Assembly (NCBI GenBank): GCA_022703255.1
Contig: JAKLDZ010000008.1
Location: 1 to 36,522, forward strand
Length of the DNA: 36,522 nt
From: Myxococcota bacterium
GTDB taxonomy: Bacteria > Myxococcota_A > Polyangia > Polyangiales > Polyangiaceae
Direction: 5' to 3'
Position numbers and translations under genes: made by a program. A model generated the notes under the pieces. It did not search any database. It was not told the origin of the DNA and was given only the letters and a program-made list of their open reading frames with translations. Of the stretch, positions 19,911 to 28,171 are shown one piece after another. The first letter of the stretch is position 1, and the number at the start of each line of letters is the position of its first letter.

Positions 19911-20339
19911 TCACTCCTCTCCGCCCGATCTCCTTTGCAGCTTGCGTTCCCCCCGGCGTCGCTTGTCCTCGATTCGGCGCCGCACCGATCCGCGCGTCGG
20001 GCGCGTCGGCCTTCGCACCGTCGGAACCACCATCGCGCGTGCGATGAGGTCGCGAACCTTCTCCCGCGCGTCCTGCAGGTTCACGAGCTGATCGCGCGTG
20101 CGGCTGCTCGTGACCAGCAGCTTGCCCTCGGCATCGAGCCGCGTGCGCGCAAGAACCAGGAGCCGGGCGCGAGCGGCTTCGTCGAGTCCTTCGATCCGGG
20201 ACAGGTCCACCCTGAGGAGGATCTTCGAGGCGACCTTGTTGACGTTCTGGCCGCCGGGTCCGGGGGAGCGGACGGCGGACACCTCGATGGCGTCGGGGGG
20301 CACGAAGACGGCGAGGGAGACGAGGATCGGGTCCTGCAC
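19911..20339 (-). CDS. arfB: ArfB (YaeJ)-type peptidyl-tRNA hydrolase, ribosome rescue factor
   Basis: GTG 20339 gives 142 residues, the normal ArfB length. The catalytic GGQ lies in SPGPGGQNVNKV near residue 25-36. The middle matches class-I release-factor domain 3 (RVDLSRIEGLDEAARARLLVL, LVTSSRTRDQLVNLQDA). The C-terminal tail VRRPTRPTRGSVRRRIEDKRRRGERKLQRR is the basic segment that enters the empty mRNA channel of stalled ribosomes. It releases nascent chains from non-stop complexes. The much longer open frame upstream is the shadow of the Hsp70-like gene. No Shine-Dalgarno is present, but TATCGT ends 7 nt before the GTG, supporting this start as a leaderless transcript. It is divergent from the Hsp70-dynamin operon. 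Confidence 0.93.
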   Translation of the reverse strand: MQDPILVSLAVFVPPDAIEVSAVRSPGPGGQNVNKVASKILLRVDLSRIEGLDEAARARLLVLARTRLDAEGKLLVTSSRTRDQLVNLQDAREKVRDLIARAMVVPTVRRPTRPTRGSVRRRIEDKRRRGERKLQRRSGGEE

Positions 20340-20417: not shown

Positions 20418-23183
20418 ATGGCCGACCAACCGCAAGCGAGTACCCACGAGAATCGTCAGGGGGCGTCGGGATCGACGCCGCAGGTTCGCATCGACGAGAT
20501 GGCGATGCTGTTGAGGCTGCCGGTCGCCGACGGGGTGCGGTTCGAGCTGAAGCCGGCGCGCATGCTGACGGCGGCCCACGATCCGACCTTGCCGGTGTTC
20601 GACGGGTGGACCTCGACGGCGGAGATGGTCGTGCGCGTGTCGGGGCTGTGCGACGCACCGTTCACGGCGGGGCTCGACTTCGACGGAGCGAAGCTCGGCA
20701 GTCCGCAAGAGGCGACGGTCGTGCGGACGTCGTCGGGGCACCTGCACTTCACGCTGGAGCTGACGGTGCCGTTGAAGCACCTCGCGGCCTACGTGGGGCG
20801 CGAGGTGAAGGTGGGCCTGGCGATGCACCCGGCCGGGCGCACGCTGCGTCTCGCGAAGCTGTCCCTGGCGTTCTTCCGCTCGCAGGGCCCGCAGATCGCC
20901 TCCCTGGACCTGCGCGAGTGCACGGACGCGGAGCTGTTCGACGCGCCGGAGCGCAGGCTGTTCGACCTGCAGAATCCCGAGGAGGGAATGTGGGCCGGCA
21001 CCGGCAAGTGGAAGCTGCGTCTCGCGGCGGAGTGGGCGCGGGCCGGCGACGGCTATGTGCTCGATCCGAAGCCGTCGCACGTGCTGCATCGATGGCAGCG
21101 CGCGAACGACGAGACCGACGTCGTCTACGAGGATCCGTCGCAACGGGGCACCGGCGCGACCACGGAGCTGGTGCTGACATTCGACAGCTCGCACAAGGGG
21201 GTCGGTGAGATCCCGCCGGAGGGCAAGGACGTCCCGATCGATCTCATCGTGGAGCACCCGTTGACCTTCGCGGATCGCGCGTGCGTGCTGTCGTGGCACG
21301 CGTCGCTGCCGATCCGGCTGCGCGATCCAGTGCCGATGCTCAAGACCTTCCAGCGGCTGTCGGCGGTCGGGATCGACTTCGGCACGACGGCGAGCGTGGC
21401 GGCATTGCACCACAAGGGGTATCGATCGCTGCTGCGCCTCGGGCCTGCGGGCAACACGGCGGAGAACCCGACCTATCTGCTCATCGAGGACCACGAGCGA
21501 CTGTGGACCGAGATGGGGAGCAGCCGGCGGTTCCCGTGCGTGCTCGGGCTGGTGCGCGGAAGCCACGCGGCCTACGACCGGATGGTCGAGTTCCCGAGCG
21601 CGGTCGTCGGCGAGCTCAAGAGCCTGCCGGGTCGCGTGATGACCCTCGATCAGTCGCCGCAGCTTCGGGACCGGGACAAGCAGCGGGACTTCCTGCTCGA
21701 CGAAGGTCGCGTACGGATCCTGATCCGGACCTATGCCTACCTGCTCGGCAGGGCGATCAACCGTCCGGGCCAGGACGTGTACCTGCACTACTGGCTGACC
21801 CATCCGGCGAAGTACGACCGGCGCATCAGGGAGCTGCTCGAGGAGGAGATCCGCGCGGGCATCCTGATGAGCATTCCCGAAGGAATTGCGGCGTCGGACG
21901 TGCTCGTGTCGATGCGGGCGAGCGAGCCCGAGGCGTTCGCCGCAGAGGTGTGCCCCGAGCTGGCGGCGATGCCGGAGCTCGAGCCGCTCGTTTCGAAGTG
22001 GGGCGAGCTGCGGTTCGCGGTCTTCGACTTCGGCGGCGGCACGCTCGACATCGCGTGCGGCCGGTTCCGTCCCGCGACCGATCAGGAGCAGCAGGAGTCG
22101 GGCGCCTCGACGGTAGTGGAGACGTTGCAGGTGGGAGGGGACGAGGATCTGGGCGGGGACTATCTGACGCACGAGCTGGTGTGGTTGACGCACCAGTACG
22201 AGAAGTTCCTGCCGGAGATGGAGGACAAGGAGGTGCCGATGATGCGTCCGGCGACGGTGCCTCCGAACAACCTGGCGAACAAGCCGCACCTGTACAAGCG
22301 GAGCCTGGCGGGGCGTCAGAACCGCGTGCGGTTCCAGCGGGAGCTGGGGCTGGAGGACGTGAAGCGCGGGCCGCAGAATGCCCCGAAGCGCGTGGAGGAT
22401 CTGGTGGCGGCGCGTCTGGACGGCGGCGATGCGCACCTGCAGTCGCTGCGCAGCGACGTGCCGGGGCTGCACGCGCAGCTCAAGGGGCACCTGCAGACGC
22501 GCATCCGGGATGGCGTGAAGCTGCTGGACAGCATGCTGCGCAACACCTCGTGGGGCTGCGAAGGGGGATGGCGCGAGCAGGGCGTCGTGATCCTGCTCGC
22601 AGGCAACTCGTCGCGCAGCGAGTTCGTCGAGAAGGTCCTCGCCGAGGAGCTGCACGTGCCCGACCTCAAGGTGTGGCGTCCGGGATCGAGCACGCGCTTC
22701 CAGCAGGTGGTGCTCTACGAGACCCAGCCGCGGCTGGAGCGCGGGGTCACGATCGTGGGGGTCACGCCCAAGACCGCGACCGCGCTCGGAGCGTTGAAGA
22801 TCGCGAACCACGAGGTGCACCTGGTGCGCAGGGCACAGGGATTCAGCTACTTCCTGGGAGATCTGCGCGGCTTCCCTCCCAAGTTCGTCGCCCTCGTCCC
22901 CATGGGCGCCCCCACCGCGAACCCCGCCGAGCTCGGCGATCACTTCGTCGCCTTCGGCACCTGGGACTCGCAGAAACCGCTTCGGGTCGCGAAGGATTAC
23001 GTGCCCGGCACGATGACCTCCAACGATCCGAGGCTGTCGCTGGTGCCCACCGGGCTGCCCCCGGGCGCCCAGGGCAAGCTGTACGTCTGCGTGGTGAGCC
23101 CCGAGGAGATCGCGCTGCACCTGGAGCGCGAGGGGGCGGAGCCGCTGAAGACGACGCTGAACCTGGCGAAGTACATGAGCTGA
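20418..23183 (+). CDS. Hsp70/actin-like ATPase with large N-terminal extension
   Basis: This 921-residue cytosolic protein has an Hsp70-type nucleotide-binding domain starting only at about residue 315. Phosphate-1 is VGIDFGTTAS (317-326), phosphate-2 is FDFGGGTLDIA (536-546) and the adenosine motif is LLAGNSSRSEF (about 726-736). The first 310 residues (FELKPARM, FTAGLDFDGAKLG, LHFTLELTVPLKHLAAYVG) look beta-rich and resemble no domain I can name. The region after the adenosine motif (about 740-921) is not a classical DnaK substrate-binding domain plus lid. The protein is therefore more like a specialised actin/Hsp70-superfamily ATPase than a housekeeping chaperone. The SrfB family is a comparable large actin-like protein, but I cannot show homology. 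It is the first gene of a run with a dynamin-like GTPase 55 bp downstream. Confidence 0.85.
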   Translation: MADQPQASTHENRQGASGSTPQVRIDEMAMLLRLPVADGVRFELKPARMLTAAHDPTLPVFDGWTSTAEMVVRVSGLCDAPFTAGLDFDGAKLGSPQEATVVRTSSGHLHFTLELTVPLKHLAAYVGREVKVGLAMHPAGRTLRLAKLSLAFFRSQGPQIASLDLRECTDAELFDAPERRLFDLQNPEEGMWAGTGKWKLRLAAEWARAGDGYVLDPKPSHVLHRWQRANDETDVVYEDPSQRGTGATTELVLTFDSSHKGVGEIPPEGKDVPIDLIVEHPLTFADRACVLSWHASLPIRLRDPVPMLKTFQRLSAVGIDFGTTASVAALHHKGYRSLLRLGPAGNTAENPTYLLIEDHERLWTEMGSSRRFPCVLGLVRGSHAAYDRMVEFPSAVVGELKSLPGRVMTLDQSPQLRDRDKQRDFLLDEGRVRILIRTYAYLLGRAINRPGQDVYLHYWLTHPAKYDRRIRELLEEEIRAGILMSIPEGIAASDVLVSMRASEPEAFAAEVCPELAAMPELEPLVSKWGELRFAVFDFGGGTLDIACGRFRPATDQEQQESGASTVVETLQVGGDEDLGGDYLTHELVWLTHQYEKFLPEMEDKEVPMMRPATVPPNNLANKPHLYKRSLAGRQNRVRFQRELGLEDVKRGPQNAPKRVEDLVAARLDGGDAHLQSLRSDVPGLHAQLKGHLQTRIRDGVKLLDSMLRNTSWGCEGGWREQGVVILLAGNSSRSEFVEKVLAEELHVPDLKVWRPGSSTRFQQVVLYETQPRLERGVTIVGVTPKTATALGALKIANHEVHLVRRAQGFSYFLGDLRGFPPKFVALVPMGAPTANPAELGDHFVAFGTWDSQKPLRVAKDYVPGTMTSNDPRLSLVPTGLPPGAQGKLYVCVVSPEEIALHLEREGAEPLKTTLNLAKYMS

Positions 23184-23238
23184 GCGACGAGCACGACGAC
23201 GACGACAAGGTTCCAGCAAGGCGCAGGAGAGAGGCAAA

Positions 23239-25824
23239 ATGTGGAGTCCCGAGAGCCGGAAGAGGAATGCCGAAGAGCTACGCAAGGTCGCGGACAAGCT
23301 GTTGCGGTATCGGCAGCTCGCCGATCGGTTCACGGGCTACTTCCAGGCCGAGAGCGACAATGCGCGGCTGCTCAAGCAGGTCAGGACGAAGCTGGATGAC
23401 CTGCGGGCGCGGGCGACGGATCGGGAGAAGCGTCTCGCCAAGGGGGTGGTGAAGATCGGGGTGGTCGGCCTCGAGAAGCAGGGCAAGAGCGCGTTCCTGT
23501 CGGCGTGGCTCAAGAGCGAGAAGCTGCTGCCGAGCGAGGCGGAGCGGTGCACGTGGAGCACGACGGTGGTGGAGCCCGGGGAGCCGGGGCAGTTCCACGC
23601 GATCGTGAACTACTACACGCCGGAGGACTTCAAGGCGCGGATTGCGAGCTACTTCGACGCGCTGCAGCCGGGGAGCGCGGATCGCTGGGCCGGGCTCAAC
23701 GCCGCCGAGATCCTGCGTCTGCGCGCGGCATTCAGGGAGCGCGAGGGCTACGAGGTCGACGATCCGGATCGCGCGGGGCGTCGGGAGCACGTGGCGCTGG
23801 CGGAGCTGCAGGACATCGCTGCGGGGCTGTCGGAGATCAAGGCGCGGCTGGGCAAGGAGCCGGAGCGGATCGAGGCCTCGAGCATCGACGATCTCGCCGA
23901 CAAGATCCGCCCGTACATCGCCCTCAAGGACACGCTGCACGGCAATCGCCCCTACCCCGGCGTGCGCGCCGTGCGCGAAGTGGTGGTCGTGATCCCGGTG
24001 GCCGCGGCCATGCCCGGCGTGGTGCTGATGGACCTGCCGGGCATCGACGCCCCCTCGGACAAGGCGAGGCGCGACACCGAAGACGCCCTCACGCACGAGG
24101 TGGACGTCACGATCTTCATCAAGGACGTCACGCGGCCCTCGCTGGTGCGCAACGAGATCGACCTGCTGCGGACCGCGCAGTCGGCGGACCGGAGCATCTC
24201 GCTGAAGGACCGGATGTTCGTGGTGCTCACGAAGTCGGACCTGTTCGATCACCCCGACGAGAACGGCAACTGGCACTGGTCGCTGGCGGCGCGCAACTTC
24301 AAGGAGCAGGGAGTCGATCGGATCTTCCCCTACTCGAAGGTGTGGGTGCACCAGGGCGTGGACCTGGAGCACCCGGTGGCGCGTCAGCTCATGGACTTCT
24401 ACGGCTCCACGGTGCCGGTCCACGGGCTCGAGAAGCTCCAGGCCGCGATCGAGCGCTACCTGTCCACCGACGTCGAGGCGCTCGACAAGAAGGTGACCGA
24501 TCAGGTGCGCCAGGAGTTCGGGGAGCTCGAGGCGCAGCTTCGCGGCGCCCTGGTGTCGGTGAAGGACGGCCTGTCCGATCGGGAGTTCGATCGGAGGGCG
24601 GAGCAGGAGTTCGATCAGCTCTGGGAGCACATCCTCGCGGGCGAGGACCCGGTGGGGTTGCTGCCCGAGATCCGCAAGCGGCTGAGCGCGTTCATGGACT
24701 TCGAGATGAGCGATCAGCAGCGGATGGCGCGCGCCACCAAGGCCGACGAGCGCATCAAGGAGATCCGCAAGGAGCTGCTCAGCCGGCTGACACCCGAGGA
24801 AGCGGAGGCGAAGCGTCGCCAGATGCCGAGCCCCGGGCTCATGAACGAGACCGCGGTCGAGATCGAGATGCGCAAGCAGATGCGCGAGCGCGTGGCTTCG
24901 CGGATCGCCGGCCTGGGCGAGGACTTCCGCAACACCGCCCGGGAGAGCATCGAGCGGATGCTCCTCGAGATGTTCGTCAAGGCCGTCTACGAAGCGGGAC
25001 GCCTGGAGGTGCTGCTGCCGTCGGGCAAGTTCCTCGTCGAGCGGATCGACGCGCTGGGGCGATCTGGGCACGTGTCCGAGAGCGTGGTGCGCTACCAGAA
25101 TCAGGAGATGGCCAAGGCCGACGTGGCCTTCGAGGTGCTGTCGCGCTACTTCGCGCGACAGATCATCGACATCCTCGACGCGACGGATCCCGGGGATCGG
25201 GAAATGCGCGAGAAGGAGATGCGGGGCCTCGAGCAGTTCTTCGGGATGGGGATCGCGGACAAGGCGCAGCAGCGAGCGGACGGCGTGCTTGCGACGGTGA
25301 AGGCGAAGGTGGGGCTGGGGGACAAGGACGCGGCGCAGGCGCCGGTGGCCACGAACAGCTTCCCGTCGGGCGGAGCGGCGAGCTTCCCCATGGCCCCCGC
25401 GCAGCCGGTGCGCAAGGAGGCGCCGAAGGACGAGGCCGCGCCGGCAAGGGAGAAGGACGACTATCCGACGACCACGCGCGACTGGAACAAGATGCTCGCG
25501 CGCGTGCGAGCCGACGTCGAGCGCATCTGCAGCTTCCTCGAGGCGCTCGCGAAGCACCCTCGCGGCCTGCAGAAGTACCACGAGGAGGCGGTCCGGACCG
25601 TGCACGACTCGTGGCTCGATCGCGAAGGCGAGCAGTCGTTGCGTCGATGGGTCCGCTCCGAGTGCGCGCGGATTTGGCCGCACAAGTTCGCGGCGATCGA
25701 GGCCGAGAAGGATCGCGCGCAGTCCGACATCCGCGCCCTCGAGGAGCTGTTCGGCGCCCAGGAGTCCCATGCGCCAGCGCCTGCCGCGAAGGCTGCTGAC
25801 AAGCCCGCCCGGGCCGGAGGTTGA
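23239..25824 (+). CDS. Dynamin-family GTPase
   Basis: This 861-residue protein has AGGAGAG upstream. A helical N-terminus (about 1-68) precedes a large GTPase domain. P-loop G1 is GLEKQGKS (77-84). The G2 threonine is in LPSEAERCTWSTT (about 105-109), the place where dynamins have LPxxxxxxT. G3 is DLPG (265-268) and G4 is TKSD (331-334). An insertion of about 150 residues lies between G2 and G3. The helical stalk-like region (about 410-660) contains long charged helices (KRRQMPSPGLMNETAVEIEMRK region). A Pro/Ala linker (about 700-740) leads to another helical segment (about 745-840). No transmembrane helix is evident. Dynamins oligomerise and remodel membranes on GTP hydrolysis; that role is inferred here. 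It is tightly linked to the Hsp70-like gene and to the coiled-coil gene (2-bp gap). Confidence 0.88.
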   Translation: MWSPESRKRNAEELRKVADKLLRYRQLADRFTGYFQAESDNARLLKQVRTKLDDLRARATDREKRLAKGVVKIGVVGLEKQGKSAFLSAWLKSEKLLPSEAERCTWSTTVVEPGEPGQFHAIVNYYTPEDFKARIASYFDALQPGSADRWAGLNAAEILRLRAAFREREGYEVDDPDRAGRREHVALAELQDIAAGLSEIKARLGKEPERIEASSIDDLADKIRPYIALKDTLHGNRPYPGVRAVREVVVVIPVAAAMPGVVLMDLPGIDAPSDKARRDTEDALTHEVDVTIFIKDVTRPSLVRNEIDLLRTAQSADRSISLKDRMFVVLTKSDLFDHPDENGNWHWSLAARNFKEQGVDRIFPYSKVWVHQGVDLEHPVARQLMDFYGSTVPVHGLEKLQAAIERYLSTDVEALDKKVTDQVRQEFGELEAQLRGALVSVKDGLSDREFDRRAEQEFDQLWEHILAGEDPVGLLPEIRKRLSAFMDFEMSDQQRMARATKADERIKEIRKELLSRLTPEEAEAKRRQMPSPGLMNETAVEIEMRKQMRERVASRIAGLGEDFRNTARESIERMLLEMFVKAVYEAGRLEVLLPSGKFLVERIDALGRSGHVSESVVRYQNQEMAKADVAFEVLSRYFARQIIDILDATDPGDREMREKEMRGLEQFFGMGIADKAQQRADGVLATVKAKVGLGDKDAAQAPVATNSFPSGGAASFPMAPAQPVRKEAPKDEAAPAREKDDYPTTTRDWNKMLARVRADVERICSFLEALAKHPRGLQKYHEEAVRTVHDSWLDREGEQSLRRWVRSECARIWPHKFAAIEAEKDRAQSDIRALEELFGAQESHAPAPAAKAADKPARAGG

Positions 25825-25826
25825 CG

Positions 25827-27797
25827 ATGGTGTACGAGCTCGGTCCGCTCAAGAGCTACGTCCGCTTCTACCTGACGGTCGTGAACCAGCTGCAGAGCTC
25901 CTGGGACACGCTGGGAGAGACGCACGAGGCGATGCGACAGACGATGGCCCCGTTCGCGGAGCCGCTTGCGCCCCTGCAGAACGCCAGCGTGGCTGCGTCG
26001 CAGGGCCCGTCTCCGCAGCGCCCAGCCGCGCTCGCAGCGCTGTGGCGCCCGCAGGATCGCTCGGAGCTCGAGGGGCTGCTCGACGTCTACGAGGTCGTCG
26101 GGCGCTTCTCGTTCCAGGGGCAGGACAACGACAACCTGGCGCGGGTGCAGGCGGTGGTGAGCGGAGCGCGCAACGAGATCGCGCAGCAGCGCATGCGCCT
26201 GAGCGATCTCGCGAAGCTCCCGGCCGTGGCGACGACGGCGTCGGACCGGCTCGCTGCGGAGGAAGCGCGCATGGCAGCGCAGCGCAAGTCCGACAAGGTC
26301 GCGGCCTTCACGCCGCTGGTGCAGGTTCTCCAGCAGCGGGGCAAGCAGACCATGGACGCGGTGCGCGGGGTGCCGCTGCCGGATCTGCAGAACTACGAAA
26401 CCGCGGCCGACGACTACCTTCGCTTCGTGGTGCGACTCGATCAGGTCTACCAGACCTGTCTGCCGTACCTGCGCAAGGCGCTGTCGGACCTGTACCAGTT
26501 CGCAGGTTGCGAGGTGCCGCAGTCGTGGCCCGACACGCTGCCCATGCAGCGCGAGATCCCCCAGGAGCTCGTGTCGGTTCCGCCGGCAGACTCCCCCGAT
26601 CTGCAGCGGGCCACCTCGGGTCGCGAAGCGCTCGCCGACGAGGAGACGCAGCTTCTGCGCGCGCGCGATGACGTCGCGGTGACCCAGGCGCGCATCGAAG
26701 GGGAGCTGGCGGCGGAGATCGCAAAGGAAGCGGAGGTGCGCGCGGAGATCGACGTCGCCGGCACGGTGCTCGAGTACGCGATGCTGCTGGAGCAGGCCGA
26801 TCAGGCGGGTCAGGCCATCGGGCAGCTCGAGCAGCAGAAAGCCCAACGCACCTACACGGTGGGCGAGATCCAGGGGCGTCAGACCCAGAACCAGGCGGCC
26901 ATCACCGCCCTCGAGCAGGAGCTCGCCGAACGCACCAACGAGCTCGGCGTGGCCGGACAAAGGCTCGCGGTCGAGCGCGACAACGAGCCGGCGCTGTTCG
27001 GCAAGGACGACTGGCGCAAGCGGGTCGCTGCGATCGAGGAGGAGGTCGAGTCGCTCCGCAGCACGTTCGCGCAGCGCCAGGGCATCCTCAACCAGCTCAA
27101 AATCGATCTGTCGGCCCTCTCCGTGCAGGCCCAGACCGAGCAGTCCCAGATCGCTCTTATCGAGCGTTGGATCGCCGACACGAAGGCCCGGCAGAAGACG
27201 CTGCACGACAGCGCGCGCGAGGTGGAGAACAGGCTCGGCCACGCGCGTCCACCCAAGCCCCCGACCGTGACCGAAGCCGAGCAGATCCTGACGGTGATGC
27301 AGACTCGCCGCGGCGAGCTGCTCGAGCGCATCGAGCGTCTCAAGACCGAAATCCGCCGCCAGAAGGAGGAGACCGCACGCATCCTCGCCCGGCTCAAGCA
27401 GATCGAGCTCGAGCGACAGCGTGTGGCGCAAATGGTCCAGAGCGCTCAGGTCGCAGCGACCCAGGGAAGAGAGGCGGCGCTGCGCCAGCTCGCCTCCCGG
27501 CGCCGCGCAGCCGTCGAGCAGCACACCCTCGAGGTACTGGGCGGGCTCGAGCGCTCGCTCGCCTCCATCGACCAGGTGTTCGTGGAGCCCGCGCGCGAGG
27601 CCATGCTCAAGGACGATTCCCCGCGTCCCCTCCCCTCCGAGATCGTTCGAGACGCCGCCGACAAGCTCGCACCCGTGGTGGAGAGGCTGGTGAGCGAGCT
27701 CGATCCGCAGCTGCTCACGCAGGACGCGATGCTGGGGCAGGTCCAGCGGGAGTTCTGCGATGTCGCCGTGGAGGCCTGCCGCTCGGCGTGGGGATGA
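25827..27797 (+). CDS. Long coiled-coil protein of the Hsp70-dynamin operon
   Basis: ATG 25827 (656 aa) has GGAGG 6 nt upstream, inside the end of the dynamin gene; a TTG at 25821 is in frame but too close to that site. The N-terminal 250 residues are helical without a known domain (YELGPLKSYVRFYLTVVNQLQ). Residues about 260-560 are a long Gln/Glu/Ala/Arg-rich coiled coil (AITALEQELAERTNEL, LIERWIADTKARQKTL, ERIERLKTEIRRQKEETARILARLKQIELERQRV). A break near residue 390 (FGKDDWRK) may be a hinge. No signal peptide or membrane helix is visible. Scaffold or tether for the ATPase and GTPase encoded upstream is the natural inference. It overlaps the VanZ gene by 4 bp. Confidence 0.85.
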   Translation: MVYELGPLKSYVRFYLTVVNQLQSSWDTLGETHEAMRQTMAPFAEPLAPLQNASVAASQGPSPQRPAALAALWRPQDRSELEGLLDVYEVVGRFSFQGQDNDNLARVQAVVSGARNEIAQQRMRLSDLAKLPAVATTASDRLAAEEARMAAQRKSDKVAAFTPLVQVLQQRGKQTMDAVRGVPLPDLQNYETAADDYLRFVVRLDQVYQTCLPYLRKALSDLYQFAGCEVPQSWPDTLPMQREIPQELVSVPPADSPDLQRATSGREALADEETQLLRARDDVAVTQARIEGELAAEIAKEAEVRAEIDVAGTVLEYAMLLEQADQAGQAIGQLEQQKAQRTYTVGEIQGRQTQNQAAITALEQELAERTNELGVAGQRLAVERDNEPALFGKDDWRKRVAAIEEEVESLRSTFAQRQGILNQLKIDLSALSVQAQTEQSQIALIERWIADTKARQKTLHDSAREVENRLGHARPPKPPTVTEAEQILTVMQTRRGELLERIERLKTEIRRQKEETARILARLKQIELERQRVAQMVQSAQVAATQGREAALRQLASRRRAAVEQHTLEVLGGLERSLASIDQVFVEPAREAMLKDDSPRPLPSEIVRDAADKLAPVVERLVSELDPQLLTQDAMLGQVQREFCDVAVEACRSAWG

Positions 27798-28171
27798 AGC
27801 GCTCTCTGCTGCTCTGGGCTCCCGCGGCCATCGTCGCCGGGATCATCTTCTTCGCCTCCTCCCTGCCAGGCCAGTCGCTCCCTTCGGTTGCCATCTGGTC
27901 CTTCGACAAGGTCGTCCATGCCGCGGTGTACGCCGTCCTCGGCCTGCTCGTCGCCTTGCCCCTCGAGCGCCTGAAGGTGATCCAGCGACGCACGGCGATC
28001 GTGATCGTGGCAGCCATGGTCGTGACGGCCTACGGGATCTCGGACGAGCTGCACCAGCGGTTCACGCCGGGACGAAGCCCCGATGTGTTCGACGTGATCG
28101 CGGACGCGATCGGAGGCGTGTTGGGAGCATGGGCATGGGTGGGGTTTCGTCGGAAACGGGCCGGGGACTGA
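27794..28171 (+). CDS. VanZ-family membrane protein
   Basis: ATG 27794 overlaps the stop of the coiled-coil gene (ATGA), which argues for translational coupling. The 125-residue protein has four hydrophobic segments and the VanZ signatures: FDKVVHAAVYAVLGLL (about 37-52) and DELHQRFTPGRSPDVFDVIADAIGG (about 83-107). VanZ proteins are small inner-membrane proteins. The name comes from teicoplanin resistance, but most members, including chromosomal ones like this, have no proven function. Because it is the last gene of the Hsp70-dynamin-coiled-coil run, it could supply a membrane partner, or it may simply be a passenger. The frame is open upstream only as shadow. Confidence 0.92.
   Translation: MKRSLLLWAPAAIVAGIIFFASSLPGQSLPSVAIWSFDKVVHAAVYAVLGLLVALPLERLKVIQRRTAIVIVAAMVVTAYGISDELHQRFTPGRSPDVFDVIADAIGGVLGAWAWVGFRRKRAGD

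Follow-up and report, generated by a model that had tools for sequence, protein, structure and literature searches.

The DNA analysed here, referred to as the window, is a stretch of 36,522 nucleotides from a Myxococcota bacterium of the family Polyangiaceae (assembly GCA_022703255.1, contig JAKLDZ010000008.1; genome G000 below, with an assembly that is 73.5% complete). On its plus strand lie three consecutive genes, which code for a divergent Hsp70-family ATPase (P1), a bacterial dynamin-like GTPase (P2) and a predicted coiled-coil protein (P3), and a fourth gene for a small VanZ-like membrane protein (Table 1). All four open reading frames were found where the initial annotation of this DNA had placed them, and the same four were chosen by a codon-model gene caller. 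The tight packing it had described was also confirmed in the sequence. P1 and P2 are 55 bp apart, the P2 stop at 25824 and the P3 ATG at 25827 are separated by 2 bp, and the VanZ ATG at 27794 forms an ATGA overlap with the P3 stop. In genome G001, the counterparts of P1, P2 and P3 align over the full length with 78%, 83% and 73% identity, respectively, and the gene order is kept, which allowed us to conclude that the three are real genes. Close relatives of P1 were found in the named organisms Polyangium, Minicystis and Byssovorax as well as in further Myxococcota assemblies.

The locus had been described as a four-gene module. The identity of the VanZ gene was upheld by the Pfam match, but its membership was not: among the genomes examined, VanZ follows P3 in G000, G001 and G017 only, in the last of these at a spacing of ~210 bp. 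Since VanZ adjoins the cluster in three genomes only, it was rejected as a core member, and the module is treated here as three genes with VanZ as a local neighbour.

Table 1. Genes of the locus and conserved motifs of P1 and P2 (positions in the window)
Feature	Position	Strand	Basis
P1, divergent Hsp70-family ATPase, 921 aa	20418..23183	+	AlphaFold2 model, PDB structure search, hhalign, profile matches
P1 GxW motif NPEEGMW, residues 186-192	20973..20993	+	Family alignment
P1 phosphate-1 motif VGIDFGTTASVAA, residues 317-329	21366..21404	+	Mostly invariant in 13 members; aligned to HscC
P1 Lys401, matching the conserved lysine of the Hsp70 nucleotide-binding domain	21618..21620	+	Invariant in family; HscC alignment
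P1 phosphate-2 motif VFDFGGGTLDIACG, residues 535-548	22020..22061	+	Family alignment, HscC alignment
P1 adenosine motif LLAGNSSRSEFV, residues 726-737	22593..22628	+	Family alignment, HscC alignment
P2, bacterial dynamin-like GTPase, 861 aa	23239..25824	+	Dynamin_N E 6.1e-10; model and structure search
P2 G1/P-loop GLEKQGKS, residues 77-84	23467..23490	+	Conserved in family
P2 G3 motif DLPGID, residues 265-270	24031..24048	+	Conserved in family
P2 G4 motif LTKSD, residues 330-334	24226..24240	+	Conserved in family
P3, predicted coiled-coil protein, 656 aa, ATG start	25827..27797	+	Composition, heptad periodicity, weak coiled-coil matches
VanZ-like small membrane protein	27794..28171	+	Pfam E 8.1e-15

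Co-inheritance of P1, P2 and P3

The presence or absence of the three genes was surveyed in 145 genomes of the order Polyangiales. P1 was detected in 27 genomes, P2 in 26 and P3 in 27; all three were present in 26 genomes and none in 117. The two exceptions, G090 and G098, each have one gene and are incomplete assemblies (76 and 64% completeness). Co-occurrence across related genomes, which the initial annotation had proposed as a test, was thus observed. Fisher's test gave P ~1e-27, a value uncorrected for phylogeny, and the count of changes on a tree is the fairer figure. On a tree of RpoB from 102 genomes (24 positive), at least six changes of state were required, and P1, P2 and P3 change together. 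This tree represents one gene, some of its supports are low, and four carriers had no usable RpoB match, namely G000, G129 and G144 with the full set and G098 with P3 only. Every genome of family f6 on the tree is positive (12/12), and the distribution in family f1 is patchy.

The genes are co-retained even where they are not neighbours. P3 directly follows P2 in 21 of the 26 genomes and is unlinked to it in five. For P1 and P2, 13 genomes have both on the same strand within 20 kb of each other; 12 have them on separate contigs, and in one genome they are far apart. That the genes are retained together even when unlinked says more than synteny would by itself. When 284 genomes drawn from across the phylum were searched, the P1 and P2 profiles matched the same seven genomes, one of which (G323) belongs to a distant family; the relatives found there show 26% identity to P1 and 25% to P2. 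These two genes lie on separate short contigs (P1 relative, L155 3336-6591; P2 relative, L154 5-2368), and a second, small GTPase of the dynamin type is encoded after the P2 relative.

The separate contigs of P1 and P2 in 12 of the 26 genomes are what one would expect if these were unrelated housekeeping genes placed side by side by chance. This explanation is refuted by the identical presence and absence of the genes, which holds over six or more gains or losses and again in the phylum-wide sample, and we give it almost no weight. The initial annotation had named membership of P1 and P2 in known, unrelated housekeeping families as an outcome that would speak against it; neither is a housekeeping family, because most relatives lack both genes. 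We conclude that P1, P2 and P3 are not a chance cluster, and propose that they form the core of a single functional system in two Polyangiales families.

The Hsp70-type P1 and the dynamin-like P2

P1 had been assigned to the Hsp70/actin superfamily. The superfamily held, and the structure search narrowed the assignment to the Hsp70 type. The AlphaFold2 model of P1, with a predicted local distance difference test score (pLDDT) of 87.5, consists of a beta-rich N-terminal region (residues ~20-305), an Hsp70-type nucleotide-binding domain (~315-800) and a beta-rich C-terminal region (~805-915). The best 50 PDB matches to the model were Hsp70s only (best E 1.2e-17). An hhalign comparison of P1 with three HscC proteins covered the ATPase domain (Prob 97.3, E 2.3e-11), and weak matches to the NCBIfam HscA/DnaK profiles were obtained for 23 of 28 P1-family members (best E 6.1e-9). 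A Pfam search with the 28 members gave no HSP70 match at the cut-off. Ahead of the ATPase domain lies the GxW motif, the G and W of which are common to all 11 wider-family members compared, including proteins from Acinetobacter and Helicobacter plasmids. P1 thus belongs to a divergent Hsp70 family that carries the GxW motif, has no lid and falls below the Pfam cut-off.

The motifs GIDFGTT, FDFGGGTLD and LLAGNSSRS are conserved in the P1 family together with Lys401 and Glu503, and D320, T323, K401, E503, D537, GGGT 539-542, D544 and G729 are invariant in 13 members. Because the nucleotide motifs and these Lys and Glu residues are conserved, P1 is likely to be an active ATPase. It has in common with the Hsp70 chaperones (DnaK, HscA, HscC, BiP) the nucleotide-binding fold, the three nucleotide motifs and the conserved Lys, Glu, Asp and Thr, and a possible GrpE-like partner (see below) would be a further likeness. 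P1 is unlike them in its 310-aa beta-rich N-terminus with the GxW motif, in the missing helical lid and in having no constant J-protein. The C-terminus of the P1 model contains eight strands, and it ends in strands and one short helix (917-920). In the structure search, ~650 columns were aligned with full-length Hsp70s versus ~510 with chains of the nucleotide-binding domain only, which hints at a substrate-binding domain, although sequence comparison gave no support for one (see below).

The ASKHA fold of P1 and the 310-aa region that precedes its ATPase domain could also belong to an actin-like protein whose filaments position the dynamin, in which case P1 would not be a chaperone. The best structure and profile matches, however, are Hsp70 members and not MreB, ParM or FtsA, the 50 PDB matches listed are all Hsp70s, and a possible exchange-factor gene adjoins P1 in half of the genomes. 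We consider a filament-forming P1 to be quite improbable.

Paralogues of P1 of ~840 aa were observed in other Polyangiaceae (L046 8516-11047, L047 9069-11597, L049 8286-10811, L050 8975-11500 and L051 8513-11035). They stand alone, have no link to a dynamin and were rejected as module members. The GGGT of the phosphate-2 motif is lost or degenerate in both paralogues inspected, and these two are probably pseudo-ATPases.

The description of P2 as a dynamin-family GTPase was borne out. Dynamin_N was matched by all 24 P2-family members, in which the G1, G3 and G4 motifs are kept. The P2 model (pLDDT 74.3) starts with N-terminal helices, which are followed by the GTPase domain (~70-390), a helical stalk-like region (~396-667), a disordered linker (672-745) and C-terminal helices (750-844). 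The best 50 PDB matches found with Foldseek all belong to the dynamin superfamily; SynDLP was first (E 8.8e-15), and then came BDLP (4.4e-11), the Campylobacter pair, IniA and mitofusins. The helical stalk and bundle architecture of dynamins is thus seen in the model and in its structure matches, with modest template modelling scores (TM-scores). Like SynDLP, BDLP, the Campylobacter pair of dynamin-like proteins and IniA, P2 has a helix-flanked GTPase domain, a long helical stalk-like region and C-terminal helices. Unlike the known bacterial dynamin-like proteins, it shows no transmembrane or paddle segment, and its partners are an Hsp70 and a coiled coil instead of a second dynamin. P2 is read here as a soluble bacterial dynamin-like GTPase that may act at a membrane.

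For P3, the coiled-coil prediction of the initial annotation was retained. The protein shares 33-73% identity with its homologues, and Pfam and profile searches of P3 revealed no recognised globular domain. In Polyangium, open frames of 1554 aa gave the appearance of a P2-P3 fusion. This was rejected, as P3 in Polyangium is a gene of its own (657 aa) and the length of the frames is due to stop-free sequence upstream of it. The 3′ end of the Polyangium P3 gene overlaps a convergent gene of ~1340 aa, the start of which resembles a Ser/Thr kinase (L082 8807-12865, L083 8973-12998, L084 5664-9650).

A candidate exchange factor and a proposed assembly cycle

A gene coding for 240-300 aa lies near P1 in 14 of the 26 genomes, directly after it in 13 and with one gene between in the other. 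Its product is composed of a coiled coil and a C-terminus (e.g. GTRFSASSMEKAATTSDPAEEGNVVECMLPGLRRAGTEGMLVFPRVRVATG). This C-terminus aligned in register with the beta domain at the C-terminal end of canonical GrpE proteins of Polyangiales (hhalign P 0.0087), and in a column-shuffle control 2 of 400 alignments scored as high. When unrelated coiled-coil neighbours of P1 relatives were compared with the same GrpE stretch, P was 0.089 for Acinetobacter and 0.047 for Helicobacter. The neighbour gene had no Pfam GrpE match, and a single-sequence comparison gave no support for the GrpE likeness. We regard its product as a likely candidate for a nucleotide-exchange factor of P1. No match to the gene was detected in G000, and several more complete carriers are also without it. 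A second GrpE of G000 was rejected as the partner of P1, since it sits on another contig in a DnaJ-GrpE-HscC operon. This operon (contig C790, L156 2-2716) codes for a J-domain protein, a divergent GrpE and an HscC-like Hsp70, and related operons are present in G017 and apparently in G001. Two genomes of genus g62 have a DnaJ-like gene closely upstream of P2-P3 (L087 10367-11449, L089 1607-2689).

On membranes, dynamins form assemblies that bend, fuse or cut the membrane with the use of GTP. Hsp70s couple ATP to the binding and release of protein segments and to the dismantling of assemblies. Bacterial dynamins are widespread, the regulation of their assembly is mostly unknown, and we know of no bacterial dynamin that works with a dedicated Hsp70. 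The reading we tentatively put first is that the ATP cycle of P1 controls the assembly or disassembly of a P2/P3 complex, probably at a membrane and in half of the genomes possibly with the help of a GrpE-like factor. P2 would bind to or assemble on a membrane, and P3 would be its coiled-coil partner, serving as a tether, scaffold or adaptor. P1 might bind and release P2/P3, or a client bound to them, in the course of its ATP cycle and thereby load or disassemble the GTPase assembly. The neighbour protein may act in about half of the genomes as the exchange factor for P1. What was observed are the genes, the intact ATPase motifs of P1 and GTPase motifs of P2, the folds predicted for them and the co-inheritance. 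From these we infer that the proteins are in contact and act at a membrane, as well as the direction of control, the order of events and the exchange factor.

Several points weigh against such an assembly cycle. The contact among P1, P2 and P3 is itself part of what is inferred. The C-terminal helical lid of Hsp70 is not present in the P1 model, and sequence comparison did not support a tie between the P1 C-terminus and the Hsp70 substrate-binding domain, as 19 of 300 shuffles were as good. The overall TM-scores of the P1 and P2 models are modest (0.33). Neither a transmembrane nor a hydrophobic paddle segment was found by hydropathy analysis of P2, so its membrane binding is not evident from the sequence; the membrane-remodelling or envelope-trafficking role suggested in the initial annotation would follow from the place of P2 in the dynamin family. 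No J-protein is a constant member of the module among the carriers, and the GrpE likeness of the neighbour gene is weak, with the gene missing in 12 of the 26 genomes, including that of the window.

Another use of the same parts would be for P1 to assist the folding or maturation of P2 or P3 as a dedicated chaperone, without taking part in the GTPase's working cycle. Dedicated Hsp70s exist, HscA being an example, and such a role fits the co-inheritance and the Hsp70 fold equally well. Nothing speaks directly against it; the ATPase residues of P1 and the GTPase residues of P2 are both strictly kept. We judge this role to be rather improbable.

Two known systems invite comparison. In the eukaryotic Hsc70/auxilin/clathrin/dynamin cycle, an Hsp70 and a dynamin serve one membrane process (PMC4436892); this is an analogy only, as the module encodes no clathrin or auxilin homologue. 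The SrfA-SrfB-SrfC operon, brought up in the initial annotation as a possible distant analogue, is similar by composition, in that it pairs an actin/Hsp70-like protein with a P-loop protein. Homology was rejected because none of 28 P1-family and 24 P2-family proteins matched the SrfB or SrfC Pfam families at E<=10.

No description of an Hsp70-dynamin-coiled-coil set in bacteria was found in the open-access literature that was searched; the initial annotation likewise knew of no described function for the combination. P1 and P2 come from known superfamilies, and in our view the novelty lies in a bacterial dynamin operon that has a divergent Hsp70 dedicated to it. The work defines a divergent, lidless Hsp70 family with a GxW motif that Pfam misses at its cut-off. 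The module, carried by some soil bacteria of the order Polyangiales, points to an undescribed machine that pairs a chaperone with a membrane-bending enzyme, and its obligate co-inheritance names the partner proteins, which makes the question testable in cultured Polyangium.

Distant relatives and a possible conflict system

The module could also be a conflict system directed against phages or other elements, in which invasion or damage to the envelope would be sensed by the Hsp70-dynamin pair, with the GTPase as effector. GTPase-centric conflict systems with HSP70 and GrpE, built on DO-GTPase and GAP1, have been described from bacteria of multicellular habit (Kaur et al. 2020, PMC7159879). They are like the module in that their GTPase is joined by an Hsp70, and in some cases also by GrpE; unlike it, they have a GTPase from a different TRAFAC family that is tied to GAP1. 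Pfam searches of P1-P3 gave no DO-GTPase or GAP1 match. The patchy presence in family f1 would suit a conflict system. On the other side, all 12 f6 genomes on the RpoB tree are positive, and the Polyangiales genes occur in single copy and are often dispersed over the chromosome. Defence genes are not constant neighbours of the module genes in the carrier genomes, and the phage, plasmid and viral collections searched contained no close P1 relatives, the viral contigs and phages giving no P1 match at all. PADLOC models had no match for P1 or VanZ and chance-level matches only for P2 (best E 0.027) and P3 (best E 0.0054, coiled-coil noise). We regard a conflict role as unlikely but keep it under consideration, because an Acinetobacter plasmid carries distant relatives of P1 next to WYL, HerA-like and HEPN genes.

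On this plasmid, from Acinetobacter piscicola (NZ_CP048660.1, L163 2147-15351), two P1 relatives lie in tandem (E about 1e-97 and 1e-109). The cluster is bounded by a WYL regulator and an integrase and also contains a HerA-like ATPase, coiled-coil proteins, a HEPN protein and a dynamin-family gene that is short and probably truncated. It looks like an undescribed conflict island. A plasmid of Helicobacter sp. (NZ_AP024820.1, L164 5115-8739) carries a relative of P1 that is divided between two overlapping open reading frames. It adjoins a gene whose coiled-coil product has a C-terminus like that of GrpE.

More speculatively than for the assembly cycle itself, it is possible that the module represents an undescribed class of machine, in which a dynamin-like GTPase would have its assembly cycle driven by a dedicated Hsp70, the latter in some lineages with its own GrpE-like factor. 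The distant versions in other phyla, plasmid-borne ones among them, may have been recruited for different purposes.

Upstream of the module in the window, a minus-strand gene (19911-20339) diverges from P1; its product has a GGQ motif and resembles an ArfB-type release factor.

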